Origin: Cetobacterium somerae
Lineage (GTDB): Bacteria > Fusobacteriota > Fusobacteriia > Fusobacteriales > Fusobacteriaceae
NCBI RefSeq assembly: GCF_022430525.1
Contig: NZ_CP092523.1
Span: 1-40,685, forward strand
Direction of reading: 5' to 3'
DNA length: 40,685 bases
In this document: positions 1 through 40,685 of the stretch, piece after piece
Numbering within the stretch: the first letter of the stretch is position 1
How the letters are laid out: every line of letters begins with the position of its first letter
Program-made: the position numbers and the translations under genes
The notes under the pieces: model-generated
Told to the model about the DNA's origin: nothing
What the model saw: the letters and a program-made list of their open reading frames with translations, nothing else
The model's database searches: none

Positions 1-886
1 TAAAAGTGTTATACAATTTTCTATGAGTGATAATTTGAATTCGTGTATTGAAACTTTACCAGTTACGATAGTTTTGTGCTTAGATAATATTGAAAGAATA
101 AATGACTTGAATAGAATTACATTGTTATTATCAGGTATAGACGAGCAATTGATTCACAAAATAAGTGATAGAAAAAAATTTAAAGTTATATATCTCTACG
201 ATAAAAAATATATGGAAAAAATTTTTAGTAAAGAAAGTATAAGTTTTAACTCATATATCTCAAAATATTCAGAAAGTGAAATTCAGATTTATGGAATTGA
301 AGACGAAGATTTTAAACAAAATGAAAATTATAGTGAATTTATAAATGTAAGAAACATAATAAATAAAGAGATTGAGCTTAGAAATGATAATTTTGAAAAA
401 CAATGGTCTATGAAAATAGGTGAATTAATTGACAATGAATTTGGTAGAGATTATGATTCAGAAAAAAATTATTCTGCTGATAAAGCAAAATATTTGGAAG
501 AGATAAAAGATAAAAATAAAGCTTTGAAAGATAAAATTTTAATAGGAGTAGATAATTATACAAAACAGATTGAAGAAAAATTAAAAAATCCAAGATTTAT
601 AGAGCAATGTTTTAAGTTTAAAAAAAATGATGAACAAAAATTAACAATAGAAAATATAATAAAATATAAGATAATTTTAGATATATTTCAAAATGTTAAT
701 TTAACGAATAAATCTGTAACTGAAATTTTTGAGTATAATTTATTAAAAAAAATACAAATGAAAAATTTAATTGATTTCTCAGCAGAAACTATAGAATTAA
801 TAACCATTCAATTTATTTTATTTAATAATAATAATGAATCATTTAAGGTATTTATAAATGAGTTAAAAGAAAGTGGAGTTATATAG
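1..886 (+). CDS. KAP-family P-loop NTPase, C-terminal part (continues from 39994..40685 across the circular junction)
   Basis: This is the second part of a 525-residue protein that begins at 39994. The last two bases of the window plus base 1 make one codon, and bases 2-886 stay open in the same frame, so the ATG at 23 is probably internal (no ribosome-binding site precedes it). The Walker B motif LCLDNIER lies near base 83 (Asp about residue 259), aligning with ICLDNLER of the 868-residue KAP protein at 2732-5338; a later NPRFIEQC stretch matches NPRYVDNF there. KAP NTPases are known as membrane-linked STAND-like ATPases, several acting in phage exclusion. The protein lacks the long C-terminal region of its paralogue and has no nuclease gene beside it; a strong terminator follows at once. 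The family call is firm; a role in defence is inferred. Confidence 0.85.
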   Translation, partial: KSVIQFSMSDNLNSCIETLPVTIVLCLDNIERINDLNRITLLLSGIDEQLIHKISDRKKFKVIYLYDKKYMEKIFSKESISFNSYISKYSESEIQIYGIEDEDFKQNENYSEFINVRNIINKEIELRNDNFEKQWSMKIGELIDNEFGRDYDSEKNYSADKAKYLEEIKDKNKALKDKILIGVDNYTKQIEEKLKNPRFIEQCFKFKKNDEQKLTIENIIKYKIILDIFQNVNLTNKSVTEIFEYNLLKKIQMKNLIDFSAETIELITIQFILFNNNNESFKVFINELKESGVI

Positions 887-1497: not shown

Positions 1498-2676
1498 ATG
1501 AGTAAAAAAGTTGTGAGATATAATAATGATTTAAACTCTGTAACTTTTGGAAGTTTTAGAGAAAAAGAACTCGATCTATTTTTTTCAATATGTTTTAAGT
1601 TAAAAGAGTTAGGAACTGATGAAGTTGAAATAACATTTGAAGAGTTAAAAGAGCTTTCAGATTACTCAAATAGAAATGTAAAAAGGTTCATTAAAGACTT
1701 GGAATCAACTTATGACAAGATGCTAGGGTTAAACATAAAAATGAAGCACTCTGAGTTGAGCTTTGAAAAGTTTAATCTTTTTACAACATACAGTGTTCAT
1801 GGAGATACTAAAAAGATTCGGATTAAGATGAGTGAGAAGTTTGATTATCTTTTAAATAAAATTTTAGGAAACTATACAAAGTTTGATTTAATAGATTTTG
1901 TTCGATTGAAAAGTGTTTATTCTAAAAATCTTTTTAAATTGCTTAAGCAATGGGATAGTGTTAGAGAGTATAAAGTTTCTGTAGTGGATTTTAAGGAGCT
2001 TTTGGGAGTTTCTGATAAATATACAACAGCAAATTTTAACACGAGGGTTTTAGGGCCAATTATGGAGGAATTACCTCACCACTTTAAAGGATTATCTCTA
2101 GAAAAAATTAAAACAGGAAGAAAAGTAACTCATTTAAAGTTTACCTGGGAGATTGAGAAGCAGGAAGTTATTGAAAAAGAGAAAATTGAAATTCAAATAA
2201 CAGAAAGTTTAAATAGTATTTTTGAAAAAGTTAGGAAAAATAGATTTCTTCAAGAGTGGTTAACAGAAAAAAATATTTATAAATTAATTCAAATGTATGA
2301 TGAAAAACCTTTGAAAAAAGGGTTGATGTATCTTTATAAAGAGGTAAAAAAAGAGATGCCGAGCTTTTCCTATTTAATTAAGATAATTGAAAGTGGAATT
2401 GAGGAACAAGAGTTTGATATTAAAGTTATGAAAGATAAAACTGTGGTTGATGAAAAAGTGGAGGAAATATCAAAAGAAGTAATAGAAAGTGAAGAAGTTG
2501 AGAATCCATTATTACTAGCTTATTCAAAGATGCCAAAAGCTATTCAAGATATGCTTTTAGATCAGGCTAAAGATTTGTACATGAAAGATGTTAATATTAA
2601 AAAGATGAATGCAACACATGAGAAGTTTTTTAAAGCAGCTCAAAAAAGTTACATACTAAAAGTTCTAGGGTCTTAA
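1498..2676 (+). CDS. Rep_3-family plasmid replication initiator
   Basis: This 392-residue protein has the layout of RepB/RepE-type initiators: two winged-helix domains over about residues 1-230 (features include TFGSFREKELDLFFSICFKL, RFIKDLESTYDKMLGLNIKM, FDYLLNKILGNYTKFDL and VVDFKELLGVSDKY). It binds iterons and opens the origin. A further acidic and lysine-rich segment of about 150 residues follows, longer than in the shortest family members. The start is the ATG after GAGGTG; five iterons and a self-regulated promoter lie upstream. The next gene, a KAP NTPase, starts 55 bp downstream in the same direction and may be co-transcribed. It is one of three likely initiators here. Confidence 0.9.
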   Translation: MSKKVVRYNNDLNSVTFGSFREKELDLFFSICFKLKELGTDEVEITFEELKELSDYSNRNVKRFIKDLESTYDKMLGLNIKMKHSELSFEKFNLFTTYSVHGDTKKIRIKMSEKFDYLLNKILGNYTKFDLIDFVRLKSVYSKNLFKLLKQWDSVREYKVSVVDFKELLGVSDKYTTANFNTRVLGPIMEELPHHFKGLSLEKIKTGRKVTHLKFTWEIEKQEVIEKEKIEIQITESLNSIFEKVRKNRFLQEWLTEKNIYKLIQMYDEKPLKKGLMYLYKEVKKEMPSFSYLIKIIESGIEEQEFDIKVMKDKTVVDEKVEEISKEVIESEEVENPLLLAYSKMPKAIQDMLLDQAKDLYMKDVNIKKMNATHEKFFKAAQKSYILKVLGS

Positions 2677-2731
2677 GATTTTTAGTATTTGAAAACAGAA
2701 ATTATTATAATGGGAGGGAAATTAAATATAA

Positions 2732-5338
2732 ATGTCTCAAAAATTTAAAATAATTATAAGAGTGGTTATCTCCTTTAGTTTAGGAGCTATTTTTAATAAA
2801 GTTTTTAGTTTCACTAATAGGTTAGTTGGATCTACAGACCAATATAGTTATGAGGTTCCATTTATTTATATTTTAACGATATCTGATATCTTAGCTGTAC
2901 TTACAATAACATCAATAATAGGGATGTTTTTATATTTTTATTTTAATAAAAGTAAATCTAGTCAAAATGATATTTCTAAAATCTATAGATTGATTATTGA
3001 AAGTGAAATTTTATTATTTTCGTTTGTTATTGGAACTTCAAAATGGCAAAAAATTATTTCTAAAGATATATTTAATATTAATCAATTACTAAACAATCGT
3101 AGTTTAAATGAGATTATATTACTTTTTATTTTTATAGCTTTTTCTTCAATTGTTTTATCAGCAAATGAAATAAAGAGCAAAAAACCTGTTAAATTATATT
3201 CTTCAAGAATTTCTTTATTGGGAACAATTGATGAATATTTAAAAAGTATGAATTCATTTTCAATAATAGGAGAATGGGGAATTGGAAAAACCAAATTAAT
3301 TGAAAACTTTTTTTATGGAGATTATAAAGATTCAGATGAAAAAGAATTTAAGAATAAGTATGAATTATTATATATAGATGCATCTATTTATACGAATAGT
3401 CAAAAAATAATAGAAGCAATAGAAAGTGATTTAAATTTAATTTTTAAAAATTATGGAATTTTAAAAAAAAATACAAGTTTTATAGATGAGTTATTTATTG
3501 AAAATAATACTTTTCTAAAAACTATTTATAAATATATATTTTCAAATAAAACAGTAAATGAAGAAAAATATAAAATTGAAAAAAGAATTAAAGATATCAA
3601 AAAAAATTATGAAAAAGATATAGTTATTTGTTTAGATAATTTAGAAAGATTGAATTCAAAAGAAAAAATTATTGAGTTATTTGCAATAATAAATGAGATT
3701 TTTCCAAGTAATGTTAAGAAAATTTATATTTATGAAGAGAAAGAAATGATTGAATTATTTAAAGATAATAGTTTAAAAAATTTAAAATTCTTGCTTAAGA
3801 ATTATATAAATGATTACCAAGAAATGGATATTGTAGAAAAAGACTCGAATCAAATTTTTTTAAAATATATTGAGAAGTACACTTTTAATAAGATAGAAGT
3901 CAAGAATATAAGCATGGAAGAAATTTTAAAAGATAAAGAAACTGCCAAAGAAGTTATAGAGGAAATTATAGAAAAATGTAATAATTCAAACAAATTTATA
4001 AAATTAGTAGAAAATGTAATTAGCAAAAATTATACCGGGAAAGATGAATATATAGAAAATTTAAAAAAAGATTTTAATATAAAATTAAATGAAATAAAAA
4101 ATAGATTAAGAAATCCAAGGTATGTAGATAATTTTTTAAATTATTTAAAAGGTAGTCAGCAGAAAGAAGAGGAATATAAATATAAAATTCAATATAAGAT
4201 AACTCGAGATTTTTTATTGTCTATTAATAGAGAAAATATAAAGATAAAAGATATCTCTTCTAATATGTTATTTAATGCAGGTGATGCTTTTGAGTTATCA
4301 TTATTTGAAAAATCAAGAAGTATTAAAAATGAAAAAATTGGAGCGGAAGGATTAGAGAAACTTTGTTATATTTATCTTTTCAAAATTGATGAATATGGAC
4401 AAAACGTAAGTGACTTTGCAAAAAAAGAGAGTTATTTTGAAATTTTTTTTGAAAATAAAAAAATGATTGAACAAGCAGAAGAATTTGAGAAATTAGAAAA
4501 ATTTAAAAAAAATCCTGAGAAAAATTTATTAGATATTATTAATCAAATAATTTTTCTTTATCCAGAAGAGTTTGTAAAAAAAATCAAAGATTATTTAAGA
4601 ACTCAAGAAACTTTAAAGTATATAATATCAGTATCAGATGATTTAAGTAAATTAATATATTTAGAAAAATTGGTTGAGTATTCTGAATTTCTTCTTCCAA
4701 AAATAATTTTAAATGAAAACGGTAAATACTCAGATGGAGGAAATAAAAAAGAATTAGAAGAATATCATTCCATTTTGACAAAGGTTTATTTATTAAAAAA
4801 TAATTTTATTAAAGATTTAATTCAAATTATGAATAAAGAAGAATTAAAAGATTTTTATAAATTAGTTCCAAATAATTTTAATGAATTTCTTAAAACAAAA
4901 TTAAATATAGAAACTTTAGAAGAGTTTATTGAAATTTTATTAAAAAAAACTGATGAGAATAAAGAGATTTTAGATAAATTAAAAACTTATGAAATAACAA
5001 AAAAATCAATAGAAACTTTAAAAAATATTAATAATTTAAAAAAAGATAGATTTCAGGTAGAAGAAAAAGTTTTAAAAATTTCTGATGAACTTTTAAAAAC
5101 AAGAAAAATAAATATACTAGAAGCTATTTCTGATAAAGGAGACTATTTAGAAATACATGATAGCTATTCTTATGAAGAGATAATAATAAAAAAAACTGAA
5201 ATAGATACTTATATAGAAGAATTAGAAGAAAGAGGAGAAAAAAATCAGAAATTAATGGAAGGAATAAGGACTATAATTATAGAGCTAGATAAATTTAAAA
5301 AGAAAGTTAGGGAGTTAAATGGAGAAACAGGAGTATAA
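2732..5338 (+). CDS. Membrane-anchored KAP-family P-loop NTPase, first gene of a putative defence operon
   Basis: An 868-residue protein with four predicted membrane segments in the first 145 residues (about 7-25, 43-70, 88-103 and 124-142), then an NTPase domain: Walker A GEWGIGKT at 180-187 and Walker B DIVICLDNLER at 296-306. The remaining 500 or so residues are charged, helix-rich and likely the sensor or partner-binding part. KAP NTPases with membrane helices are known from phage exclusion (PifA) and from Qat-type defence systems. The gene is preceded by GGGAGGG, and its end overlaps the next gene, a PD-(D/E)XK nuclease, by 20 bp, which argues for translational coupling. A shorter paralogue spans the circular junction (39994-886). 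Recognition is good; the defence role is inferred from family and operon. Confidence 0.85.
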   Translation: MSQKFKIIIRVVISFSLGAIFNKVFSFTNRLVGSTDQYSYEVPFIYILTISDILAVLTITSIIGMFLYFYFNKSKSSQNDISKIYRLIIESEILLFSFVIGTSKWQKIISKDIFNINQLLNNRSLNEIILLFIFIAFSSIVLSANEIKSKKPVKLYSSRISLLGTIDEYLKSMNSFSIIGEWGIGKTKLIENFFYGDYKDSDEKEFKNKYELLYIDASIYTNSQKIIEAIESDLNLIFKNYGILKKNTSFIDELFIENNTFLKTIYKYIFSNKTVNEEKYKIEKRIKDIKKNYEKDIVICLDNLERLNSKEKIIELFAIINEIFPSNVKKIYIYEEKEMIELFKDNSLKNLKFLLKNYINDYQEMDIVEKDSNQIFLKYIEKYTFNKIEVKNISMEEILKDKETAKEVIEEIIEKCNNSNKFIKLVENVISKNYTGKDEYIENLKKDFNIKLNEIKNRLRNPRYVDNFLNYLKGSQQKEEEYKYKIQYKITRDFLLSINRENIKIKDISSNMLFNAGDAFELSLFEKSRSIKNEKIGAEGLEKLCYIYLFKIDEYGQNVSDFAKKESYFEIFFENKKMIEQAEEFEKLEKFKKNPEKNLLDIINQIIFLYPEEFVKKIKDYLRTQETLKYIISVSDDLSKLIYLEKLVEYSEFLLPKIILNENGKYSDGGNKKELEEYHSILTKVYLLKNNFIKDLIQIMNKEELKDFYKLVPNNFNEFLKTKLNIETLEEFIEILLKKTDENKEILDKLKTYEITKKSIETLKNINNLKKDRFQVEEKVLKISDELLKTRKINILEAISDKGDYLEIHDSYSYEEIIIKKTEIDTYIEELEERGEKNQKLMEGIRTIIIELDKFKKKVRELNGETGV

Positions 5339-6569
5339 GTTATTTTTTGAGAACTTAGATTTGATAAAAAGAAAATATGATATATTACATAGCTTTGAAG
5401 ATGAGTTTAATATTTTTTCTATTTTGAGAAATGAAAGAGATGAAGTAAATTTGCATTCCAAATTTATAGGTGAACTTTTAAAAAATAAAAGTTTCGGAGA
5501 TATTTTCTTGAAGCTTTTTTTAGAAATTTTAGAGATTGAAATAGAGGAAAAGCTAAATAAAAGTATCTACTTAGAATATGGAGTAAGTGATAATGGAAGA
5601 ATAGATATTCTATTAAAAATTAATTCTAAAAGCTTTAAAAGAGTAGTTATTATTGAAAATAAAATAGATGCTGGAGATCAATGGCAACAACTTCAAAGAT
5701 ATGTAGAGGCTATGAAAAAAGAGGGATATTCCAAAGATGAAATAACTATTATTTATTTAACTTTAGCTGGAGAGACACCTTCTAATTATAGTTTAGGCTG
5801 CATTCAAGATGAGGAAGTTATAAAGCTATCTTATAAAGAGCATATAATCTCTTGGATAGAGAAATGTATAAAAGAGGTTGCTGCGGTTCCAAGTTTAAGA
5901 GAAACTTTGATTCAGTATAAAAAACTTTTAGAAAAACTAACAGGTAAAGGGGAGAAGAAAATGATAGATGAACTAAAGGAGATGATACTTTCAAAGGAAA
6001 AATATCTATCTGCAGCCTATTTAATACCAGATATTCTTTTAGAAATCAAAAGAGTTTTACAATATAGATTTTGGGAAAAGTTAGAAGTAGAAATGGAAAA
6101 ACTAAATTTAAAAGAAGTTAAATTTGAAGATGAATTTAATACTAAATTTGATTTAGATAAAGTAAATAAATTTTATACAACTTCAACAAATAAAAGATTT
6201 TATGGAATAATGTATGAAATTAAAGAATTAGAAGATGGGAATAAGTTATATTTAAGAATAGAAGTTAACCATAATATTTATTTGGGATTAAGGGTTATAG
6301 ATAAAGATGGGAATTCTAATAAAAATTTAGATAAACAATATTTAAATAGAAGTTTAAAAGAATTTGGATTTACTACTAATAATATGTGGTTAGGATGGAG
6401 ACATTGTTATTTAGATGAAACCTCTTTAGAAACTATAAATTTTAATAAATTTGATGCAAAACTAGCTGGTATTTTAAGAGATGAAGATAAACTTAAAAAA
6501 TTAGTTGAATCTATTGTAGTGAGTATAAAAAAGGATTTGGATAAATTAAAAGAAAATGAAGTAATTTAA
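5319..6569 (+). CDS. PD-(D/E)XK nuclease family protein (PDDEXK_4 type)
   Basis: A 416-residue protein. The N-terminal half has the nuclease signature: Asp96 in GRIDILLKI, then Glu113 and Lys115 in VIIENKIDAGDQWQQLQRY, the typical D...ExK followed by a Q-rich helix. The fold cuts DNA using a metal ion. The C-terminal half (about residues 215-416) is a separate region of unknown role containing YLRIEVNHNIYLGLRV and NNMWLGWRHCYLD. The start codon lies inside the end of the KAP gene, so the two are probably made together; the next gene follows after 13 bp. I infer that the nuclease is the effector of a KAP-controlled defence system. Confidence 0.85.
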   Translation: MEKQEYKLFFENLDLIKRKYDILHSFEDEFNIFSILRNERDEVNLHSKFIGELLKNKSFGDIFLKLFLEILEIEIEEKLNKSIYLEYGVSDNGRIDILLKINSKSFKRVVIIENKIDAGDQWQQLQRYVEAMKKEGYSKDEITIIYLTLAGETPSNYSLGCIQDEEVIKLSYKEHIISWIEKCIKEVAAVPSLRETLIQYKKLLEKLTGKGEKKMIDELKEMILSKEKYLSAAYLIPDILLEIKRVLQYRFWEKLEVEMEKLNLKEVKFEDEFNTKFDLDKVNKFYTTSTNKRFYGIMYEIKELEDGNKLYLRIEVNHNIYLGLRVIDKDGNSNKNLDKQYLNRSLKEFGFTTNNMWLGWRHCYLDETSLETINFNKFDAKLAGILRDEDKLKKLVESIVVSIKKDLDKLKENEVI

Positions 6570-6582
6570 AAAGGAGAAACTT

Positions 6583-7008
6583 ATGAACTTAAAAGATTTA
6601 CAACAAAAATATTGGAGTACTTTTATAAAAGTAGCTTTAATAAAAAGAAAATTATCTTCAGATGAATATAGACTAGTTAAAACGGCTGGTATAGATGTTG
6701 CTATTTGCAAAGATTATCACTTGTATATTTCTACAGATAGTAGAAAAAAAACTTTGACTATAAAGGTTTACATTGATAGCAATAAAGAATACTATAAACT
6801 TTTTGAAAGTAAAAAATTAGAAATAGAAGATCAAATTGGATCTAAATTAGAATGGAGAAATTTAGAGGATAATAAATCAAGTATGATTATGAAAAGTGTG
6901 GAATTTGATATATATAATGAAGAATCGTGGGGAGATTCAATAAATTACTTATTATCAGAAATTCCTAAGTATATAGAAGTTTTTAAAAAATATGAGCATA
7001 GTATATAA
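6583..7008 (+). CDS. DUF4268-domain protein
   Basis: A 141-residue protein preceded by AAAGGAG. The stretch KKTLTIKVYIDSNKEYYKLF followed by QIGSKLEWRNLEDNKSSMIM matches my memory of the DUF4268 domain, which often stands alone or fused to restriction-like nucleases. Its biochemical role is not known. Being third in the KAP-nuclease operon, it may be a subunit or specificity partner of the nuclease. The domain call is from pattern memory, not from a search. Confidence 0.65.
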   Translation: MNLKDLQQKYWSTFIKVALIKRKLSSDEYRLVKTAGIDVAICKDYHLYISTDSRKKTLTIKVYIDSNKEYYKLFESKKLEIEDQIGSKLEWRNLEDNKSSMIMKSVEFDIYNEESWGDSINYLLSEIPKYIEVFKKYEHSI

Positions 7009-7066
7009 GCAGGATATTAAGAACTATATCAAAATATGTTAAGGAAATTGTAATATTGGAGGTAGA

Positions 7067-8266
7067 ATGAAGTCAGAGTATTCATCTAATCAAATTTTAG
7101 AACGAAAATCGATTCATTATATAGAGGGAAAGTGTATAAATTTAAAGTGGAAATATCGTCAATATGATCAAGATAATGATGTTGATGGAGAGATAGAAAT
7201 ATTTGAAGAAGAAGAAAGTTTATTAAAAAATATAACTAAATCTAATTACATAAAAGTTCAATTAAAAGCTCAACAAAAGGTTGATAAAAATGAAAAATTT
7301 GTAAGATTTTCTTTAAAAACAAAATTTATCAAATTTATAAAAGAATGCCAAGTTCCTTTAATTTTGATAGTTTATGATGAAAGTGAAGAGAAGGGATATT
7401 GGGTATTTTTACAAAGGTATTATAGAGAAAATAATTTAGACGAAAGTTTAAATCAACTTGAGAAAACTATATATATACCAATAGAAAATACTTTAGAAGA
7501 TATAGACTTGTTTAAAAACGAAATGTTAAAATTATCAGAAGATGGTTTGTTAGAAATATTATTAGAAAATAAAAAAATAAATTTGAATGAATGTTATGAA
7601 ATCATAGAAACAAAAGATATATCATATGCAGGTAGAGTTAGAAAAACAATGAGCGTTTATATAAATAATTTATTTTTAAAAAATGAATATATTTTAAATA
7701 AATTATTGATTAGATTAGAAAATGAACATATAAAGAATGATATCAATTTTAGAGAAAGTAATAAGTTAGTGGATGAACTAACTATATTTGTTTATAATTC
7801 TTTGATAAAAATTGGGAATTTTGCTGCTTTATTTAGATATGAAGTAATAAATAATAACGGAAAATACAATAGAGCTTTGATAGATTTGAATAAGCTTGAC
7901 TATAATATAGAGACATATTCCAAAGGGGAATATTTACAAATAGCATTGATTAGTTTTTTAGAGGCAACAAAGATTACCACAAATTTATACAATTTAAATA
8001 ATGTTAAAACAAATATTATAAAATATGAAAAAGATATTGAAGAAATATATTTTGGATTTATAGATAGATCAAAAATAGCTCCTTTAGAATGTAAAAAATT
8101 AGATGAAAGTTTTTTACAATATATAAGTTTACTTGATAATTTTAAATTCTACAAAGAGGATCATTATAATGATTATTATATAAATAAAAAAATTAGTGAA
8201 TTAAAACTTAAAGAAATAGAGGTAATTGATTTAATGAAAAAGCAAATTCAAAGTATTTATATATAA
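7067..8266 (+). CDS. DUF4365-domain protein, nuclease-like, last gene of the putative defence operon
   Basis: A 399-residue protein with GGAGG before the ATG. The first 150 residues look like DUF4365, a restriction-nuclease-like fold: the acidic motif is DVDGEIEIF (Asp38, Asp40, Glu42) and the core strand is YIKVQLKAQQKV (Gln65, Lys67), replacing the usual ExK with QxK. After that comes GYWVFLQRYY, also typical of the domain. The C-terminal 250 residues are helix-rich and not recognised. The gene follows the DUF4268 gene by 58 bp in the same direction and is the last before the GC-rich non-coding island, so the operon would carry two nuclease-like proteins. Confidence 0.7.
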   Translation: MKSEYSSNQILERKSIHYIEGKCINLKWKYRQYDQDNDVDGEIEIFEEEESLLKNITKSNYIKVQLKAQQKVDKNEKFVRFSLKTKFIKFIKECQVPLILIVYDESEEKGYWVFLQRYYRENNLDESLNQLEKTIYIPIENTLEDIDLFKNEMLKLSEDGLLEILLENKKINLNECYEIIETKDISYAGRVRKTMSVYINNLFLKNEYILNKLLIRLENEHIKNDINFRESNKLVDELTIFVYNSLIKIGNFAALFRYEVINNNGKYNRALIDLNKLDYNIETYSKGEYLQIALISFLEATKITTNLYNLNNVKTNIIKYEKDIEEIYFGFIDRSKIAPLECKKLDESFLQYISLLDNFKFYKEDHYNDYYINKKISELKLKEIEVIDLMKKQIQSIYI

Positions 8267-8285
8267 AATTAAGTAACTTTTTATT

Positions 8286-8797
8286 CAAGAAACCCCGCCT
8301 GCTGCGAGAACCGATATTCGGCGGGGACAAGCCAGCGATGAGACACATTTCTCCAGTGAGAGATAGGGATGTCAGTCGCTGGCTTTTTTCTTTCATAAAA
8401 AATGTGTGGGCTTGGGCCACCCCCGCCGCTCTTCCCCCCAAGCCCCCCTTCCGGCATCCCCCGTCAAGGTACTCCCTTTTTGGTGGGACCGCTCTTGGGG
8501 GTGGCCAATGCCTTTCCCTCATTTTGCTCCCTTTGGGATAGAATCAGGCTTTTTTTCGCTGAGATTGTAAAAGAGAAAGCATGTCTCAGCAAAGCCTTCA
8601 TAAGCAAGAGGCAGCAACTGCGCCCACACTTAATAATCCCCACCCTCCCTCTACTGCTATCTTGTTGGGACATTCCCATTTTTAGTAAGTAGAGTTAGAC
8701 ATACTATCTATCATAGTTTTTAAAAATTTAGGCGGAAATAACTTTTTTTATCTTCTAGCTGCAATCTCCGCCAAAAATCCACCCGGTGGACTTTCAG
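8286..8797 (-). ncRNA. Candidate large structured non-coding RNA, copy A
   Basis: A GC-rich island stands out in an AT-rich plasmid and has no credible protein gene. Read on the minus strand it holds: a short palindromic hairpin (8794-8777); a GGCGGAGATT...TTTCCGCC stem (8772-8730); GGGAATGTCCC and GATAGCAG (about 8687-8655); GGGAGGGTGGGG; CCCCCAAGAG pairing with GCGGGGGTGG; a long stem GCCAGCGA/TCGCTGGC (8383-8331); and a final hairpin CCCCGCC...GGCGGGG (8326-8293) followed by TTTCTTG. Several of these blocks recur in the same strand sense in the island at 39230-39905. The size, GC contrast, G-runs and plasmid setting recall ornate large RNAs such as ROOL, known from phages and plasmids of Firmicutes and Fusobacteria. 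The class is not proven. Confidence 0.55.
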
Positions 8798-8825
8798 ATT
8801 TTACCAAAGATAAAATTTAAGTAAA
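8798..8825 (-). promoter_or_regulatory. Possible promoter of structured RNA copy A
   Basis: On the minus strand TTTACT (8825-8820) and TAAAAT (8803-8798) are 16 bp apart. The expected start would lie just before the palindromic hairpin and the GGCGG stem of the RNA candidate. In AT-rich DNA such matches arise easily, so the call is weak. Confidence 0.3.
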
Positions 8826-8932: not shown

Positions 8933-9730
8933 ATGAAAAAAAGAGTGTTTTATATTTTAAATATTTTTCTAATTTTATCATTTCAGTTGCTAGCTTTAAA
9001 TTTTACTGAAAATAAAAAAATTGAAGAGATATTTGAAAAGAATAAATTAGAAGGAACTTTTGTCCTTTATGACGCACAAAATAATAGTTTCACTGGTTAC
9101 AATAAAAAAAGAGCAGAAGTACAATTTTATCCAGCTTCTACTTTTAAAATTTACAACTCTCTAATTGGATTAAACACTGGAGTTGTTAAGAATGTAGATG
9201 ATATTTTTTACAAATATAATGGTGAGAAAGTATTTTTAGAAAGTTGGGCTCAAGATTCAAATTTAAGATATGCTATTAAAGTTTCACAAGTTCCTGCTTA
9301 TCAATTGTTAGCTAGAAAAATTGGAACAGAAAAAATGCAAGAAGAAATCAATAAATTAAATTTTGGAAATAAAAAAATTGGAGAAGAAGTTGATCAATTT
9401 TGGTTAAGAGGACCTCTAAAAATTAGTGCTGTAGAGCAATGTGAGTTATTAGCTAAATTAGCAAAAAATGAATTACCATACACTAAAGATATTCAAAAGC
9501 AAGTTCAAGAAATAACAGTTTTAGAAAAGACTGAAGAGTGGACTATGCACGGAAAAACTGGATGGGCAACTTCAAATATAGAAATTCCAGTTGGATGGTT
9601 TGTTGGTTGGGTAGAAAAAGATGGCAAGGTATACAGTTTTGCTATAAACTTAGATATGAAAGAAGGTAAAAATTTACCTAAGCGTGAAGAAATGGCAAAG
9701 GAATCTTTAAAAGCCTTAAATATTATATAG
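8933..9730 (+). CDS. Class D beta-lactamase, OXA type
   Basis: A 265-residue secreted enzyme that hydrolyses beta-lactam antibiotics. A signal peptide covers about residues 1-22 (positive start, then a leucine/isoleucine-rich stretch). All class D motifs are present: STFK at 69-72 (catalytic Ser69 and the lysine that becomes carboxylated), SQV at 118-120, FGN at 144-146, Trp157, and KTG at 208-210. GGAG precedes the ATG and a perfect terminator follows. The gene stands alone, with no regulator. It is AT-rich like its surroundings, so it is native to this group of hosts; OXA-85-like enzymes are known in Fusobacterium. The family is certain; the exact allele is not. Confidence 0.95.
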   Translation: MKKRVFYILNIFLILSFQLLALNFTENKKIEEIFEKNKLEGTFVLYDAQNNSFTGYNKKRAEVQFYPASTFKIYNSLIGLNTGVVKNVDDIFYKYNGEKVFLESWAQDSNLRYAIKVSQVPAYQLLARKIGTEKMQEEINKLNFGNKKIGEEVDQFWLRGPLKISAVEQCELLAKLAKNELPYTKDIQKQVQEITVLEKTEEWTMHGKTGWATSNIEIPVGWFVGWVEKDGKVYSFAINLDMKEGKNLPKREEMAKESLKALNII

Positions 9731-20296: not shown

Positions 20297-20318
20297 AAAA
20301 GTCCACCCGGTGGACTTT
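20297..20318. repeat. Short palindromic hairpin, family copy
   Basis: AGTCCACCCGGTGGACT flanked by A and T runs. The same hairpin or a base-paired variant occurs at 8777, 21064, 21260, 21426, 21455 and 39552. Here it is preceded by GAGAAAATTATTTTGATAT, as at 21241, so part of the flank is repeated as well. Confidence 0.75.
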
Positions 20319-21063: not shown

Positions 21064-21086
21064 AAAGTCCACCCGGTGGACTTTTT
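21064..21086. repeat. Short palindromic hairpin, family copy
   Basis: AGTCCACCCGGTGGACT with a T-run on the right, identical in its core to the copy at 20297. It may act as a terminator. Confidence 0.7.
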
Positions 21087-21157: not shown

Positions 21158-21259
21158 GGGGGGATTAAATTATTTATTACTTTTTTAACACTTATTTACA
21201 ATATTTAGACAACGGGTTTTATAAAAAAGTTTTAATTTTTGAGAAAATTATTTTGATAT

Positions 21260-21284
21260 AAAAAGTTCGCTCAGCGAACTTTTT
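21260..21284. repeat. Short palindromic hairpin, variant stem
   Basis: AGTTCGCTCAGCGAACT keeps the outer AGT/ACT pairs of the family but changes both sides of the inner stem together, so pairing is kept. It lies at the end of the 115-bp block, like the copy at 39552. Confidence 0.7.
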
Positions 21285-21392
21285 GTAAATTACAAAAATA
21301 AGAATACTTTACTAATTTTAAAATAAAAAATTTATAGTAAGAAATAGCCACTTAACTCATCACTTTCTCCCTCTGGTCGTAGCTGGGATAGT
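21285..21392 (-). repeat. 115-bp repeated block, second copy (inverted)
   Basis: On the minus strand the block begins ACTATCCCAGCTACGACCAG and runs through GAGTTAAGTGGCTATTTCTT to a hairpin of the AGTCC family. It matches 39436-39560 (plus strand) with only a few differences. The other copy is part of the large structured RNA candidate, so this may be a detached domain of such an RNA. Confidence 0.75.
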
Positions 21393-21491: not shown

Positions 21492-22073
21492 TTATAAATT
21501 ATTCTCATTTTTAATTTTTTCCCACTCTCTAAGCAGTTTATAAAACGTTGTCTTTTTAAGATTTAGTATTTCCATAGCTCTAGTACCTGTGATTTCTCTA
21601 GTTTTCCAACTGTTATAAATCTCTTTCCAGTTCTCTGGAAAAGGTATTGGTTTACGTCCTTTGTACTTTCCTAACTCCTTTGCTATCAATATTCCCTCCC
21701 TTTGACGCTCTAAAAGATTAGTCCTTTCAAACTCGTTTATAGCAGCTATCATAGTTAACATTAGCTTTCCAGTAGGTGTAGATGTGTCGATGTTCTCTTT
21801 AAATGACACCAAATGCACCTTTTTTTTGGCTAAAAGGTCAGTTATATGTAAAAGGTCCTTAGTAGATCTAGCTAATCTAGAGAAATCATGGACATATACA
21901 GTATCCCCTTCTCTAACAAACTCTAGCATGTTTTTAAGTTCAGGTCTCCCCTCGATATCTTTACCTGATACTTTTTCAATATACAGTTTTTCCACCTTGG
22001 CCTCTTTCATCCTCACCAATTGGCGACTTTCATTTTGGTCCACAGTGGAGACTCTCACATATCCAACTTTCAT
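21492..22073 (-). CDS. Serine recombinase, resolvase/invertase family
   Basis: A 193-residue site-specific recombinase. The N-terminal catalytic domain starts KVGYVRVSTVDQN, with the nucleophile Ser9, and continues VHDFSRLARSTKDLL and FKENIDTSTPTGKLMLTMIAA. The C-terminal helix-turn-helix (about 150-190; TGTRAMEILNLKKTTFYKLL) binds DNA. Length matches small resolvases and invertases. On a plasmid it most likely resolves multimers or cointegrates. Three evenly spaced CGTTCG motifs upstream form a probable res site. Confidence 0.95.
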   Translation of the reverse strand: MKVGYVRVSTVDQNESRQLVRMKEAKVEKLYIEKVSGKDIEGRPELKNMLEFVREGDTVYVHDFSRLARSTKDLLHITDLLAKKKVHLVSFKENIDTSTPTGKLMLTMIAAINEFERTNLLERQREGILIAKELGKYKGRKPIPFPENWKEIYNSWKTREITGTRAMEILNLKKTTFYKLLREWEKIKNENNL

Positions 22074-25406: not shown

Positions 25407-25612
25407 GTCTATATCCACAATAGTGGAATTATAACATCTCAACATCATCATGTGAATACAAGACTTTATGTCTATATCCACAATAGTGGAATTATAACTC
25501 AACATAAATTATTATGTTTTTATCAATTGATGAGTCTATATCCACAATAGTGGAATTATAACTTAACCAATTTGCCGTACCTTTTCTTCTTGCAAATGTC
25601 TATATCCACAAT
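25407..25612 (+). CRISPR. Short CRISPR array of type VI (Cas13)
   Basis: Three identical 29-bp repeats at 25407-25435, 25470-25498 and 25534-25562, and a fourth cut off after 15 bases (25598-25612). The repeat begins GTCTATATCC, has the hairpin CCAC-AATA-GTGG, and ends GGAATTATAAC. The three spacers are 34, 35 and 35 bp. The truncated repeat marks the distal end, so transcription is probably on the plus strand, towards the cas13 gene that runs on the minus strand. No cas1 or cas2 is present, so new spacers cannot be gained without help. No spacer matches the rest of the plasmid by eye. Confidence 0.93.
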
Positions 25613-25760: not shown

Positions 25761-27839
25761 TTATTTCGTTCCATAAACAATAGTTTTTCCAAAAATATAT
25801 CCACTTCTCAGATCAAACTTAAACTCAATCTTTTTCACACTATGCTTAGGAACTACTGTTACAACTCCACCTTTTTCACAGCATAAATAATATTGATTTT
25901 CTAATATAGACTTTTCATCAATAATATACACATCACTATCTTTATCTCTTTTAACCTTTATTATAAAAGATTCAGTTTCTCCTGCAGCTGCCTTGTAAAC
26001 ATTTATAGTTATTATTTTTTCTTCATCATAGATAAATTTTTCAATAACCTTTTTCTTTAATTTCTTTACAACCTGTTCCTTATAAACACCCATTAAATCA
26101 GAACTATCTTTTATTAAAATTCCATTTCTAGTTTTCTCATCTAACTTTAAAAATGGTATATTATCTACTTTTATAGAGGTAAAAATTCCCTTGTTTTCAT
26201 CTATAGATTCCACTTCATCAGCAATACTTCTCAATTTATTTGCTCTGTCATATACTTTATTTAAATTATCATAATCAAGATTTAATCTATATTTTTTCAT
26301 AAGTTCATCATTTTGCTTTTTCATCAAATCCCTTTTAGTATCTATAATGTCACTTGGAATCAACCTTCTCTGATTGAAAATAAACCTCTCTTTTTTCATG
26401 TAGTAATCATTCACAAAATCCATACCTAAATCAACTTTATTCAGCTTATTATCTAAAGAAAATTCAATAGCACTTCTAACATTTTCGTTAAGTTTCAATT
26501 CATTTTTAAAGAGATCTACAATTAACTCTTTTAAATTTAAATGAGCAATAGAATTTCTAATTTTAGCTTTATTTTTATAATCTTTTTTATTAATTATCTT
26601 TAATAAATTAGAAAAATTAAAAAAGCCATCTTTTCCTTCATCTTTAACAAAAGTCAAGGTTTCTTCTAAATTAATACTTTTATTTTGAGCAAGTTTTAAT
26701 AACCCGTGAATCTCTATATCGTTATAAAGTTTAAATACATTTTGATAGTATTTAAAAATAGGCAGCAGCATATTTTTATTAAATATCCCAACTTCATCAG
26801 TGGATTTGTACTCTAGATGTTTAACATTTAGTTCTAATAATTCAAAATACCTCTTCATATCTTCATGATTAGATATAGAGTACTTTATAATTTCATAATT
26901 TTTTATATTTTTCTCAAAGAGACGAATTTTGTGGAAGAACCCATCATCAGATAACTTTTTTAACTTTTCATTGAGTTTTTCATCACTTAAACTCTCATCA
27001 CTTTCATCTAAGAAATCCACATTTTTTATATTGTAATAATGTGTTTTAACAAATCCCAAGAAGTCCCCTTTAAACTCAACAGGTAACAGCAAATAGTTTA
27101 AAATATAAAATTTAAACAGATTATTTTTTGAATCAACATCTAAATACAAACTATCTCTTTTATTAAACTCATCTTGCATCCTCTTTAGTTGATTTTCTAG
27201 CTTTCCAAGGTCAAAGATACTCTTCTCTCCTCTTTTAATTTTAGGTACTCTAAAGTTTAGATACTCCTCTTTCTTCTTCAAATACTCCTGGATTTTTTCT
27301 AAATTAGTTGGATCAAATTTATTTTTAAACTCTTTTAAATCCCCATTAAATTCAATTGTTAAAAAAGCATAAGCTACTTGGAGCTTATATTTCAATCTAA
27401 ATAGAGAGTTGTTTTTAGTAATCTCTTCCATCTGCTTTTTAAGTTCTAAAAGCTCGGAATTAATATTTGTTATCCTAGTTTTACTTTTAATTCCATTAAT
27501 CTCGTTATTGTAGTCTTCCACTAGGTTTTTTCTTTTGTTATATAATTTTTTATAGATATTAGATGTATGAATATCCCAAAAGTACGGAGTATTTTCCATT
27601 AGTTTAAAGTGTGACTCCATTCGATTTAAATTTTTCTTTGAAAGGTCATTTTTTTTAGAAAAACTTTTTATAGCATCCATTTCATTTTGAAAATTTTCAA
27701 CAATTAACTTTTTAAAATCAGAATCCTCCACACCATCACAAGTAAAAAATGTATTTATAAACTTATTAAATCCACTTTTATTACTACATAAAGTGTTGTA
27801 GTACGAGTATAGTTTCTTTATATTCTTAAGTTTTCCCAA
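25761..27839 (-). CDS. cas13: Cas13 (type VI effector), C-terminal part with HEPN2, cut off by an insertion
   Basis: This 692-codon frame is the second part of a cas13 gene split by a 398-bp insertion. It carries the second HEPN motif R-x4-H as RNSIAH (Arg428 of this part; about 806 in the rejoined protein). The apparent TTG start at 27839 is just the old codon at the insertion site and has no ribosome-binding site, so it is probably not translated alone. Removing the insertion with one copy of its 5-bp duplication joins both parts in one frame, giving 1070 residues. Cas13c of Fusobacterium is of similar size, so subtype VI-C is likely; VI-A is not excluded. Cas13 binds crRNA and cuts RNA through its two HEPN domains, which here are on separate pieces. 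Confidence 0.88.
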   Translation of the reverse strand: MGKLKNIKKLYSYYNTLCSNKSGFNKFINTFFTCDGVEDSDFKKLIVENFQNEMDAIKSFSKKNDLSKKNLNRMESHFKLMENTPYFWDIHTSNIYKKLYNKRKNLVEDYNNEINGIKSKTRITNINSELLELKKQMEEITKNNSLFRLKYKLQVAYAFLTIEFNGDLKEFKNKFDPTNLEKIQEYLKKKEEYLNFRVPKIKRGEKSIFDLGKLENQLKRMQDEFNKRDSLYLDVDSKNNLFKFYILNYLLLPVEFKGDFLGFVKTHYYNIKNVDFLDESDESLSDEKLNEKLKKLSDDGFFHKIRLFEKNIKNYEIIKYSISNHEDMKRYFELLELNVKHLEYKSTDEVGIFNKNMLLPIFKYYQNVFKLYNDIEIHGLLKLAQNKSINLEETLTFVKDEGKDGFFNFSNLLKIINKKDYKNKAKIRNSIAHLNLKELIVDLFKNELKLNENVRSAIEFSLDNKLNKVDLGMDFVNDYYMKKERFIFNQRRLIPSDIIDTKRDLMKKQNDELMKKYRLNLDYDNLNKVYDRANKLRSIADEVESIDENKGIFTSIKVDNIPFLKLDEKTRNGILIKDSSDLMGVYKEQVVKKLKKKVIEKFIYDEEKIITINVYKAAAGETESFIIKVKRDKDSDVYIIDEKSILENQYYLCCEKGGVVTVVPKHSVKKIEFKFDLRSGYIFGKTIVYGTK

Positions 27840-27843
27840 AATA

Positions 27844-28241
27844 GGGGTTCCGTCAGGAAAACGCGGTTTTACAACGTTAAGAAAATTAAAAAATTAATCG
27901 AACCTAATAAAATCAATATCTTATACCGTTCTGCTCCCGAAAACGCGGAATAACAACGCTAAGAACTGATTTTTAAGGATTTTTTGATTTTTTTTAAAAT
28001 TTAACAACGTTAAGGATTAAAAAACAAGCCTATTGAGACACTGAAAACCCTTATTTTTCAATGGGTCATAGAATATCTCAATAGAGTACAATCTATTGAA
28101 ACATTTTGATTTTTGAGACAATCTTTAAAAATTTTAGTTTTTTAAGAACAAAAAAGTCTATAACCTTAATAAAATCAAAGGCTTGTACGGTGTTTCAACA
28201 TTCCTTAGCGTTGTTATTCCGCGTTTTCCTGATGGGACCCC
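27844..28241. mobile_element. 398-bp MITE-like insertion in cas13
   Basis: The ends are 40-bp inverted repeats with 33 matches, starting GGGGTTCCGTCAGGAAAACG on the left and GGGGTCCCATCAGGAAAACG on the right (read inward). AAATA is duplicated on both sides (27839-27843 and 28242-28246). There is no transposase gene. Inside, GAAAACGCGG...CGCTAAGAA (27939-27965) repeats the end sequence in direct orientation, and AACAACGTTAAGGA (about 28003-28016) repeats part of it. The motif AATAAAATCAA appears twice (27907-27917, 28168-28178), similar to the plasmid origin motif. A transposase acting in trans is required; none is in the window. The family was not recognised. Confidence 0.92.
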
Positions 28242-29376
28242 AAATAGAAAGTTCTTCATCTCCATCAAGGTAGTTAGTTTTATTTTCAATTTTAAACTCC
28301 CCTATAAGTTTTGTATATCTGAAGAAGTTTAAATCAAGAAGGTTTTTAAGATTATCACAACCTCTATTTTCAAAAAGGTTTTCAAAGTACATGTAGTCGT
28401 AATGCATTAAAGCATGCCTAAACTCAGAAAAAATATCTACAATCTTTTTAAGATCCTGCTTTAGATTTTCTTTAGAGCTATATCCAGAGAGCTCTGACAT
28501 TTTAATTTTCAAACTTTTATTCAACAATTCAAGCTGTTCAATTTTTCGTTTATTTCCATTTTTATGACTAAAAAGTACTTTTAACTCCTCAATCTCTTTG
28601 TTATTTTTAGAAATTCTTTTTTCCAGTTGGTTAACTCTGTTTTCAACCTCTTTTGAGAGGGTACTATAAACATAATCTGTAATTTTTTCTAATCGTTTAT
28701 CTAATAAAGGAGTATTATTTTTAGAGAGTTTCCAAACCTCTGTAATGCCCTCCTCTTTTAAAGGAGCACATAAAAAATCATTTATTAGTGCAAAGTATAT
28801 TAGAAGATTTGAACGATAATTTAGGAATCGTTTAATCTTATAAATTTTTAAAGAGTCAATCTCATCCACTGAAACTCTAGCTATTTCAGAGTAATTTCGG
28901 CAAACCTCTTTAGATAAAAGTTTTCGTTCTGTTTGAGAGGTTCTATTTCTTAGTTTTATTCTCTCTCCACTAACATCTTTTTTCTGTTCCTCCATTTTAT
29001 CCTCTACCTCAGCAAAGATAACATTAGTAGTTTTTTCTTTTAAACTTAATGTTACTTTATATCTTCGAATCTCTTTATTTAAAATTTTATCAAATTTAGT
29101 AATAATAAAACTATTTTTATCACCAGGAGAATTTCCCATGGTGTCATATGAAAAACTATATCTATTTCTCTCTTTCTCTTTAGATTTAAAACTTTTTATA
29201 ATAACTTTTCTAGATGTTAAATCTATGTATGAATCTAAGTTAAAAGTATCAACGCCCCCCTGTTTTTGATACAGTACCTTCAACTCTTTTATCCCTATCA
29301 TATCGTAATTGGATAAAATTATTCTAATAATAGAACTTCTATTTTGCTTAGATCCATATATTTTATTTTTTTCCAC
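28195..29376 (-). CDS. cas13: Cas13 (type VI effector), N-terminal part with HEPN1, cut off by an insertion
   Basis: The first part of the split cas13 gene. I place the start at GTG 29376 because GGAGG lies seven bases before it; an ATG seven codons upstream overlaps that site. The first HEPN motif is RHALMH (Arg320, His325), in IFSEFRHALMHYDY. A coiled-coil-like helix (about 250-290) precedes it. The natural reading ends at 28242; the last 15 codons, up to a stop at 28195, come from the insertion. Without the C-terminal part the protein has only one half of the composite RNase site and should be inactive. GGAGG and a good start context suggest the gene was functional until recently. Confidence 0.88.
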   Translation of the reverse strand: MEKNKIYGSKQNRSSIIRIILSNYDMIGIKELKVLYQKQGGVDTFNLDSYIDLTSRKVIIKSFKSKEKERNRYSFSYDTMGNSPGDKNSFIITKFDKILNKEIRRYKVTLSLKEKTTNVIFAEVEDKMEEQKKDVSGERIKLRNRTSQTERKLLSKEVCRNYSEIARVSVDEIDSLKIYKIKRFLNYRSNLLIYFALINDFLCAPLKEEGITEVWKLSKNNTPLLDKRLEKITDYVYSTLSKEVENRVNQLEKRISKNNKEIEELKVLFSHKNGNKRKIEQLELLNKSLKIKMSELSGYSSKENLKQDLKKIVDIFSEFRHALMHYDYMYFENLFENRGCDNLKNLLDLNFFRYTKLIGEFKIENKTNYLDGDEELSIWGPIRKTRNNNAKEC

Positions 29377-29458
29377 ATTCACCCCTCCTATGTACAAATT
29401 TTAATAAAATTTACTTTTTAACTTTATTAGATAAAGCTATATTATGTCCCCCACGATA

Positions 29459-33153: not shown

Positions 33154-34974
33154 TTATTTTAATTTTTTTACAATTACTTCATTTATCTCTTCTAAAGTTA
33201 TATTTTTTGTAATAATTTTAGTTCCTAATTCCAATAAAGTTTCTTTTTTAATCTCTTTTAATCTCTCTTCAGAAAGATCAAAAATATTTCTATAAAGTTC
33301 AACATTTGTACTAATATAATCAGTATAATAGTTTATATCATCTATTAAACTTAAATCCACATTTTTTTCTTTTGGAATCTCTTCAATAACTGATTTTGGT
33401 TTCTCACTTTTTAGGAGATTATTTTTTAAAATATACTCAGCAATTAATCTATTCTTAGCAGCATTAAAAGCTAATTTTTGAATTTTAGTTTCTTGGCCAC
33501 ACTCTTCTATGTATGCTCTATAAACTTTTTCTTGGAGTTTTTCTTTTTCTTCAGATGACAGAGCTGAAAAATATTCTAACTCTCTTTCATAATTTTTCGG
33601 AGTCTCATCTTTATTTAAAAACTCCTCAGAAGCGTTTAAAACATCTTTTTTAGGCGTTTGTATTACAATAGCCTCATCTTCACACCAATTATTCTCCAAA
33701 GCTTTAATAAAGTATGCTCTGACCTTTTCAACTTTATTTTTTTTCATGTATATAGCTACTGATTCAACTTTTGTGTATCCATATTCTAAAATTGCCTCTT
33801 TAATAGTTTTTGGCATAGTTTTTAAACTTCTTGCTTTACTTGGCATAAGTCCTAAAATTTTATCAATCATCTCTTGAGTTACAATTACTGTAGATTCTAT
33901 TGGAGTACTCTTTTCAATAATTTCAGCATCCTCTATCATCTCGTGTTCTGTGTCACTAACAGTTGTTTCTGTTAATAGTTTTCTAAAATCATTTCGGTCT
34001 TCAAAAAATCGCTGTTGTTTCTCCTCTTTTGATTTTTCATGAAAGAAGATCTCAATCTCTGATTTTTCCCACGTCGATTCTTTTATTATTTTAAAATCCT
34101 CTATTAAATTTTTATTTTTAAGTTCTATAAAAGCTTTTTCCAAAGTTTTAATAGTATGTGCTATATTTCTTTTATCATATTTTAGTGGTATTCTTTTTAT
34201 TAAAAACAAACTATCAATATTTAAGTGAAGATTATCAAATCTAAGTTTTTCTATTAACATATAAATTGTTCTAGCAGTACTAGTTCCTATATCTAAAAGA
34301 ATTCCTGAGTTATATACCATATATCCCTTTTGAATAATATTGCTATAGAAATGATCTGAAATATTTATTTCATAAATTTCTTTAATCCTTTTATCTGGTA
34401 TCTCTTTTCTATATTTTGAGTTTTCTTTCAAAGAAAGAGTTATTATTTTTAAAGATAGTATTTGAGTACTAATTTCTTCTTTTATAACTCCTTTTTTCTC
34501 TGACGAATACATTGTATTTTTAAAATTATAATTTGTTTCTGATAATCTTAAAAGTGAATTTTTAATAACAGTTCCATAAGAAGCATTTGAACCTATTTTT
34601 AATTTATCTCTAAGTTCTGTTGAGGTAACCATAAATTTTTTTGGCATTCCTCTTTCTTTCATTATTTGCATTAAAGCTATAAAAATTTTTTCTTCCATCT
34701 CTCCTGGAATATAATTCCCAGCTGAAGGTTTAACTGTTATGTAAGTATCTCGATTTTTATTAAAATAATACTTAATTATTTGGTTTATTTTTCTCTTTGT
34801 ATTTTTAGAAAAGATAGGGAACTGAACAATATTTATGTCCATTCTTACAAGATTCTTATTTTTTATAAAAGATTCTTCTATATAAAAATTTTCCTCTACA
34901 ATTTCTGTTTCAGGTGTATCTATAACTTCTTCCCACCAAGGAGTATTTTTTTTTGTAACTTCTTTCTTAGACAT
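33154..34974 (-). CDS. Large replication initiator protein (RepA-like)
   Basis: A 606-residue protein. The start is the ATG at 34974 after GGAGGA; the ATG nine codons upstream lies inside an iteron copy and has no ribosome-binding site. The region of about residues 40-310 resembles initiator domains: NYIPGEMEEKIFIALMQIMK, VTSTELRDKLKIGSNASYGT, LSETNYNFKNTMYSSEKKGV and LLDIGTSTARTIYMLIEKLR. The C-terminal half is charged and helical and includes repeats of acidic patches. Upstream are five regular 22-bp iterons plus weaker copies, as expected for the binding site of this protein. It probably drives the second origin. I am less sure of the family than for the Rep_3 gene. Confidence 0.8.
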   Translation of the reverse strand: MSKKEVTKKNTPWWEEVIDTPETEIVEENFYIEESFIKNKNLVRMDINIVQFPIFSKNTKRKINQIIKYYFNKNRDTYITVKPSAGNYIPGEMEEKIFIALMQIMKERGMPKKFMVTSTELRDKLKIGSNASYGTVIKNSLLRLSETNYNFKNTMYSSEKKGVIKEEISTQILSLKIITLSLKENSKYRKEIPDKRIKEIYEINISDHFYSNIIQKGYMVYNSGILLDIGTSTARTIYMLIEKLRFDNLHLNIDSLFLIKRIPLKYDKRNIAHTIKTLEKAFIELKNKNLIEDFKIIKESTWEKSEIEIFFHEKSKEEKQQRFFEDRNDFRKLLTETTVSDTEHEMIEDAEIIEKSTPIESTVIVTQEMIDKILGLMPSKARSLKTMPKTIKEAILEYGYTKVESVAIYMKKNKVEKVRAYFIKALENNWCEDEAIVIQTPKKDVLNASEEFLNKDETPKNYERELEYFSALSSEEKEKLQEKVYRAYIEECGQETKIQKLAFNAAKNRLIAEYILKNNLLKSEKPKSVIEEIPKEKNVDLSLIDDINYYTDYISTNVELYRNIFDLSEERLKEIKKETLLELGTKIITKNITLEEINEVIVKKLK

Positions 34975-34995
34975 TAAATATCCTCCACTTTTTTT

Positions 34996-39209: not shown

Positions 39210-39229
39210 AAAAGAGGTTTCTTTTTTTA
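39198..39229 (+). terminator. Terminator before the structured RNA island
   Basis: GAAATCTCTT pairs with AAGAGGTTTC (one G-T pair) with a 4-base loop, followed by a run of seven Ts. It ends the esterase transcript. Confidence 0.75.
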
Positions 39230-39435
39230 TGGGAATGTCTTGATAAGATAGCAGAATGGGGAGGGTGGGAAAGACTTAAAGGTTCAAGGGCGAAGAGATC
39301 CGTGTATTGCAAATTGAAATTGCTTTCATCCACAGCTCTCAAGCCCTTTTCCTATTAAGGCAAGAACTATCTTTAACTCTTGAGCGGAGTACTAAGCGAC
39401 CGACAGGGTAGAGTACCATAAGGGACTGCCATTAA

Positions 39436-39560
39436 GACTCCCACTATCCCAGCTACGACCAGAGGGAGAAAGCGATGAGTTAAGTGGCTATTTCTTACTG
39501 TAAATTTTTTTATTTTAAAATTAGGAAAGTATTTTGATTATTGCAATTTACAAAAAGTCC
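39436..39560 (+). repeat. 115-bp repeated block, first copy
   Basis: CTATCCCAGCTACGACCAG through GAGTTAAGTGGCTATTTCTT and an AT-rich tail up to the AGTCC-type hairpin. The minus-strand copy at 21285-21392 matches it with a few changes, including AAAGCGATGAG against AAAGTGATGAG. It is part of the structured RNA candidate. Confidence 0.75.
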
Positions 39561-39578
39561 GACGGTCGGACTTTTTTT
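39552..39578. repeat. Short palindromic hairpin, variant stem
   Basis: AGTCCGACGGTCGGACT followed by a T-run; its stem differs from the AGTCCACC form on both sides so that pairing is kept. It shares its core with the hairpin at 21455. Confidence 0.7.
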
Positions 39579-39993
39579 ATGGCGGAGATTAAGGTTAGAA
39601 GAAAGAGAAATTTATTTCCGCCTAAAGTTTTAAAACTTATGATAGATAATATGTCTTTCATAGTTACGAGCTTATGTTGCTGTGGCCGTGGGCACGAGGT
39701 CCTAAGACCGAGTAGAGACCCATCCCCCAAGAGGCGACTAAAATAAAACGGTACATTAACTGGGGATGCCAGCGAAAGATGTTTTTTGAAAATTTACCTG
39801 GGCCGGCCTGTGCTAAAAAAACATCTGAAGCGACGCCGGCGGGGGATGGGCCCCGGCCACCAAGCGAGGCCGCCGTAAACAACGGACTAGCTAAGGCGAG
39901 CCGAGCGTGCTTATAATTTTATTCTTTACAAATATATATAATTAGTTTATAAATATTATTGCTTAGTATTAATGTTTTACAGGGGGAAAAATA

Positions 39994-40685
39994 TTGGAAC
40001 TTATATTTTTTATATTTTTTATTTTTTTCATAGAAAAAAATATTTTTGTGGGTGCTATTTTAGATATAACTAATACTGATCCATCAATAGAAAACAGAAT
40101 AACTATATTTTCAGGAATTTGTATTTTTATAATGAGTAATTTATTCGTAAAGTATAGAAACAATCTAAAGGATTTATATAAGTTTATTTTATATTTTTTA
40201 CTAATTTTTATAATATATTTTTATAAAGAATCAAAGAATTTATATGCTGTGATATCTCTCTTTTTAAATAATCAAATGTTTATATTTTTTATATTTTTAT
40301 TGTTATTTTCAGTTATTTTTCCGATGCTATTAAATTATATAAATGAAAAGTATCCATTGGAAAATAATTTAAAAGAGTCACTTTATTCAAGTAGAGAAAA
40401 CAAAATAAAAGTATTACACCAATTTTTAAATGTTTATAATGAATTTTCTATTACTGGGGAGTGGGGAGTTGGAAAAAGTTTTTTTCTAAAATATTTTTTT
40501 AAAAATTCAGATAAAAATAAATATGAAGAGATAATAATAGATATTTCTTCGTATTCTACTAACGATAAAATTTTAAAAAAGATAGATTCTGAAATAAATA
40601 GAATATTTAAAAAATATCATATTTTTAGATTTTCACCATCTATTTTTAAAGAAATTAGTTTACAAAATTCTTTTATAGAAATTTT
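39994..40685 (+). CDS. KAP-family P-loop NTPase, N-terminal part (continues at 1..886)
   Basis: An open frame starting at TTG 39994, seven bases after AGGGGG and 21 bases after an in-frame stop; it runs off the right end. Three or four membrane segments fill the first 115 residues (about 2-14, 30-45, 58-72 and 87-107). Walker A is GEWGVGKS at residues 155-162, aligned with GEWGIGKT of the KAP protein at 2732. The end of the window falls two bases into codon 231, and base 1 completes it; the frame goes on to the stop at 886, giving 525 residues. It is a shortened paralogue of the operon KAP protein and has the large structured RNA directly upstream. Confidence 0.88.
   Translation, partial: MELIFFIFFIFFIEKNIFVGAILDITNTDPSIENRITIFSGICIFIMSNLFVKYRNNLKDLYKFILYFLLIFIIYFYKESKNLYAVISLFLNNQMFIFFIFLLLFSVIFPMLLNYINEKYPLENNLKESLYSSRENKIKVLHQFLNVYNEFSITGEWGVGKSFFLKYFFKNSDKNKYEEIIIDISSYSTNDKILKKIDSEINRIFKKYHIFRFSPSIFKEISLQNSFIEI

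Follow-up and report, generated by a model that had tools for sequence, protein, structure and literature searches.

The stretch analysed here (the window, 40,685 bp) comes from Cetobacterium somerae, whose genus lives in the fish gut, and corresponds to contig C5 of the assembly by sequence match. Open reading frames (ORFs) at the two contig ends join in frame into a single gene for a KAP-family NTPase (KAP2, 525 amino acids), which makes it most likely that the window is a whole circular plasmid; its closest named relative is the C. somerae plasmid p7 (NZ_CP143326). Against a window GC content of 0.26, two islands stand out: island A (8273-8798, minus strand, GC 0.49) and island B (39229-39910, plus strand, GC 0.44). 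They enclose a block of genes in the order KAP2-Rep3-P-loop-PDDEXK_4-DUF4268-DUF4365, every one oriented in the B-to-A direction (gene names here and below denote profile similarity only, and several, such as Septu-like and NsnA-like, are weak). The original prediction, made from the letters of the window alone, had A and B pointing inward around a KAP2-rep-KAP1-nuclease block. This is correct on the circle, where the block measures about 9 kb; the island limits have been refined to those above.

Shared pieces of the islands were named as follows: S, a 43-nucleotide (nt) hairpin (GGCGGAGATT...TTTCCGCC); P, TATGATAGATARTATGTCT; C, the core GGGAATGTC..GATAGCAG..GGGAGGGTGGG; and K, a domain with a GC-rich closing helix, holding CCCCCAAGAG and GGGGATGCC. 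All eight motifs quoted in the original prediction were present in both islands on the strands given, and the sharing of blocks was borne out, but the block order differs: S-P-C-body with K-3' module in A, and C-B1-hairpin-S-P-B2 with K in B. On the same strand, A and B shared 27 9-mers (mean 2.7 and maximum 13 in 500 dinucleotide shuffles), against 7 on the reverse strand. BLAST with A across the 2.97 Mb genome found B through the S-P part (E 3e-18, 84% over 81 nt) and the C core (E 1e-4, 83% over 41 nt), with no further match; B additionally recovered a fragment at 21256-21392. A covariance model built from the K domain of A (R1) recovered B weakly (E 0.1), so the link between the islands depends on the motifs and on a manual alignment of helix K. 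A and B appear to be two subtypes of one structured-RNA class.

That the islands form a large structured RNA, as first proposed, was supported by covariation. In the A body, 13 pairs had changed on both sides, compared with 5.1 ± 1.6 after shuffling (0/500) and no more than 5 when the controls were slid, for nine copies of which two came from another genus and some were partial. The A 3' module gave 8 such pairs against 2.6 shuffled (0/500), a signal contributed mostly by one lineage (G009). Between the islands, helix K showed 15 cells changed on both sides, compared with 5.4 shuffled (0/500), with arms hand-picked from A and B copies and diverged copies aligned partly by hand; examples of the arm pairs are GGCCACCCCC/GGGGGTGGCC, GTTTACCCCC/GGGGGTAAAC, CCCATCCCCC/GGGGGATGGG and CTTTCCCCCC/GGGGGGAAAG. 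Judged from these alignments, helices are maintained by changes on both sides, as in a structured RNA. Protein coding was rejected: the copies differ by insertions or deletions of 1, 2, 4, 12, 23 or 24 nt and have no common open frame. One frame of the C core does read KWECPNKIAVEGG, and at locus L049 the core forms the end of a peptidase-like ORF; in other copies stops close that frame.

Within the A body, the closing helix H1 pairs 8622-8629 with 8404-8411, and helix K pairs 8497-8506 with 8415-8424. Evidence for the strand of the original prediction is given by a T run after H1 (8402-8397 in the window) in those copies that reach that far, as in intrinsic terminators, and by the S hairpin, which folds better on this strand. 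Read on the strand of the block, the A 3' module starts with GTAACTTTTTATTCAAGAAAC (8273-8293) and continues with the hairpins CCCCGCC..GGCGGGG and AAGCCAGCGA..TCGCTGGCTTTTTT. The second hairpin is T-tailed on the plus strand, so the module can, by prediction, terminate transcripts of the block. A shortened A was seen at L049 (4252-4378), where the C core is followed by GTGTGGcccaagCCCACAC-ATTTTTTAT and the inner body is deleted between the H1 arms.

The arrangement B -> different genes <- A recurred across plasmids of Cetobacterium and near relatives, in a sample of about ten loci from seven genomes and one named plasmid, several of them on broken contigs. The prediction of two copies around rep and defence genes was thus right in its geometry, while the rep gene is specific to this plasmid and the relatives carry variable defence or toxin genes. 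In p7, a three-gene Lamassu/ABC-3C operon lies between B and A; in G009:C41, an LlaJI McrBC-type restriction system with DUF4268; and in G005:C4 (L045), small genes, with A partial. L053 has a full B followed by a 1220-amino-acid protein (listed for G048), for which no family match was found, and beyond it A borders reaching to the end of the contig. At L043 and L044, B is represented by its 3' hairpins alone, ahead of a small gene, a zeta toxin (G005) and then A or its 3' module. A comes after a Septu-like pair at L050 (a weak assignment), and B stands ahead of a GmrSD/NsnA-like gene at L051 (NsnA-like being weak).

The clearest signs of gene exchange came from comparing loci around the A border. 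The border sequence GTAATTTTTTATTCAAGAAAC was found at 10 places in 9 loci, whereas mononucleotide shuffles of the window did not produce it once. In most loci it lies within about 30 nt after the last stop codon; in p7 it provides the stop codon itself, and at L053 two copies of it flank an apparent transposase fragment. The window and L043 are 89% identical up to 7008 (the DUF4268 stop codon), and 95% identity resumes at 8272 (the A border), continuing through A into an OXA-85-like beta-lactamase gene. Between these points the window has DUF4365, whereas L043 has B 3' hairpins, the small gene and the zeta toxin, as does L044. At L048 the DUF4268 gene is joined directly to A, an apparent empty site.

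The suggestion that the class may be new held up: no Rfam family was found in the window at the gathering threshold, nor in A, B or their relatives at curated thresholds, and relaxed scans (E up to 5 for A and B, up to 1 for relatives) listed a few unrelated families far below their cut-offs. Kinship with ROOL, which the original prediction had raised, is not supported, as no Rfam match reached curated thresholds; models of ROOL, GOLLD, OLE, HEARO and group I and II introns gave no family match. A and B resemble ROOL, GOLLD and OLE as large multi-helix RNA-like elements, several of which are phage- or plasmid-borne, but differ in lacking an Rfam match and in forming facing pairs of two subtypes with changing genes between. 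Among 98 Fusobacteriota genomes, the C core pattern was found in three genera of Fusobacteriaceae, plus two outside hits that look like chance matches inside protein genes; R1 found the same three genera at convincing E-values. In the plasmid collection, convincing matches were confined to C. somerae p7. A phage origin was rejected: a search of B against phages gave no match, exact patterns taken from conserved stretches of the two islands had no hit in IMG/VR, and the 19 hits of a short gapped core pattern did not bear the other motifs together.

Table 1. Coordinates of the A and B elements, the enclosed genes and a stray fragment in the window
Feature	Position	Strand	Basis
KAP2 (KAP_NTPase), first gene of bordered block	39994..40685, continuing into 1-886	+	in-frame join, KAP_NTPase profile
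Remainder of bordered block	1498..8266	+	Pfam, PADLOC
Rep3 initiator	1498-2676	+	Pfam/PADLOC
Large P-loop protein	2732-5338	+	Pfam/PADLOC
PDDEXK_4 nuclease	5319-6569	+	Pfam/PADLOC
DUF4268	6583-7008	+	Pfam/PADLOC
DUF4365	7067-8266	+	Pfam/PADLOC
3' module and right border of A	8273..8402	-	covariation, border repeats, T-tailed hairpin
A body	8397..8629	-	covariation, helix K across A and B, fold
C core of A, GGGAATGTC..GATAGCAG..GGGAGGGTGGG	8639..8679	-	BLAST, pattern scan
5' end of A (P motif 8696-8715, S hairpin 8731-8773, upstream hairpin 8774-8794)	8696..8794	-	BLAST, motif scan
Third fragment, 3' end of B1	21256..21392	-	89% identity to B, E 6e-45
C core (39229-39269) and B1 domain of B	39229..39500	+	copies in L043, L047, L053
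Hairpin-S-P stretch inside B (hairpin AAGTCCGACGGTCGGACTTTT 39550-39579, S 39580-39622, P 39638-39657)	39505..39657	+	alignments, motif scan
B2 domain with helix K (39719-39728 with 39841-39850) and 3' hairpins	39660..39910	+	helix K test, alignments, fold

In the window, B2 stops about 85 nt ahead of the KAP2 start. The B of L053 is continuous (C, B1, B2) and has no hairpin-S-P stretch, so this stretch was probably inserted into the B of the window. The third fragment (21256-21392) sits downstream of a gene (21492-22073, minus strand) for a serine resolvase (Resolvase domain). A lone C core was also seen on a chromosome contig (L046, 4344-4400), where it is joined to the C-terminal portion of a serine resolvase gene, the two meeting in a common GGGAGGG/GAGGG stretch. 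Dispersed at 20297-20317, 21065-21085, 39553-39579 and 8774-8794 are short AAAGTCCACCGGTGGACTTTT-type hairpins whose stems vary; they may be a terminator or REP-like repeat common to these plasmids.

Several neighbouring features of the plasmid were recorded. A second replication-type gene (33154-35001) encodes a protein resembling a Sebaldella replication initiator, in addition to the Rep3 gene inside the A-B block; with two such genes on one plasmid, the block may derive from another replicon. Directly outside A lies an OXA-85-like class D beta-lactamase gene (8933-9730), and the same outer flank is found in G005:C3. A type VI-C Cas13c gene (25761-29397, minus strand) is split at profile position 315 into ORFs 28195-29397 and 25761-27839 by an insert of about 330 bp with long inverted repeats beginning GAAAACGCGG. 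Adjoining it, three direct repeats of 34 nt (GTCTATATCCACAATAGTGGAATTATAAC.., 25407-25567, spacing 63-64 nt) are likely a CRISPR array.

We propose that A and B belong to a previously undescribed class of plasmid-borne genes for structured RNAs, which frame a slot where defence and toxin genes are exchanged, a reading to which we assign a probability of about one half. The features that speak for it, as read from the sequences compared here, are the covarying fold, the lack of a catalogued family, the B -> changing genes <- A layout and the junctions near the last stop codon. B would be the fixed left frame and A the fixed right frame, between which defence or toxin operons would be gained, lost and swapped. 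Both elements would be transcribed; their 3' hairpins would terminate transcription and so insulate the enclosed genes, and their conserved sequence would serve as the site of gene exchange, via homologous recombination or some recombinase. The slot resembles the defence hotspots of phages and mobile elements in holding varied defence systems between constant flanks, and differs from them in its flanks, which are two related elements resembling structured RNAs rather than protein-coding genes.

Several observations weigh against this proposal. The folding energy of A as a single sequence was unremarkable (z -1.15), that of B being moderate (z -2.6 and -2.8). On the strand of the original prediction, off-states of the helices (predicted without G-U pairs) comprised 23 A-C against 6 G-U; since A-C here equals G-U on the opposite strand, these argue for that strand, though they came mostly from the decayed-looking copy in G004 and the diverged one in G001. 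Neither A nor B yielded a convincing sigma-70 promoter, and no recombinase was linked to the exchange. The locus set is small and partly broken, some loci holding only fragments of A or B.

It is unlikely that A and B are instead the ends of a mobile DNA cassette, an inverted-repeat element that a transposase or serine resolvase would mobilise in trans and whose structure would act as DNA or single-stranded DNA. The C cores do face each other as inverted repeats, cargo borders are exact, several copies have resolvase genes nearby, and in one case the C core is fused to part of a resolvase. Yet in A the C core lies inward of S-P instead of at the outer end, and A and B are also found singly and as fragments; both are far longer than ordinary transposon ends, with covariation deep inside, and no target-site duplication was seen on inspection by eye.

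A similarly low likelihood attaches to A and B being cis-acting structured terminators or insulators of adjoining genes, reused because they are effective and having no RNA function of their own. Such a role would suit the T-tailed hairpin on the strand of the block and the stand-alone 3' pieces behind other genes (21256-21392 in the window; B2 ends after DUF4268 at L043 and L044), but would need neither a covarying structure of 300-550 nt nor the C core and K domain that A and B have in common.

The resemblance to integrons was also considered. No integron integrase (TIGR02249) scored over the cut-off in the seven carrier genomes; the search returned general tyrosine-recombinase scores only, and control genomes scored likewise. 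The slot is therefore not an integron, though it works in a resembling way: as with integron cassettes, genes are exchanged at a folded border beside a stop codon, but the loci have no integrase over the cut-off, and two different long facing elements replace the one attC per gene. That the paired RNAs or folded DNA strands actively direct the capture and exchange of defence operons, as an integron-like immunity platform without an integron integrase, is decidedly unlikely.

Membership of A and B, as diverged forms, in ARRPOF (a large RNA from Fusobacterium plasmids listed among ornate RNAs, PMC12641628) is very improbable: the phylum, the plasmid location, the large structured form and the Rep3 gene inside this block fit, but ARRPOF was not listed in the Rfam scans of A/B or relatives, which had no ARRPOF positive control, and no rep gene was identified in those blocks of relatives that were annotated.

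Defence genes gather in exchange spots, and it is often unclear what sets their edges. On the reading preferred here, in which structured-RNA genes frame the slot, both edges appear to be of one RNA class; because filled, differently filled and empty-looking slots exist, an RNA gene as a frame for the exchange of immunity genes is directly testable. The elements would also add an uncatalogued RNA class from plasmids of the Fusobacteriota.
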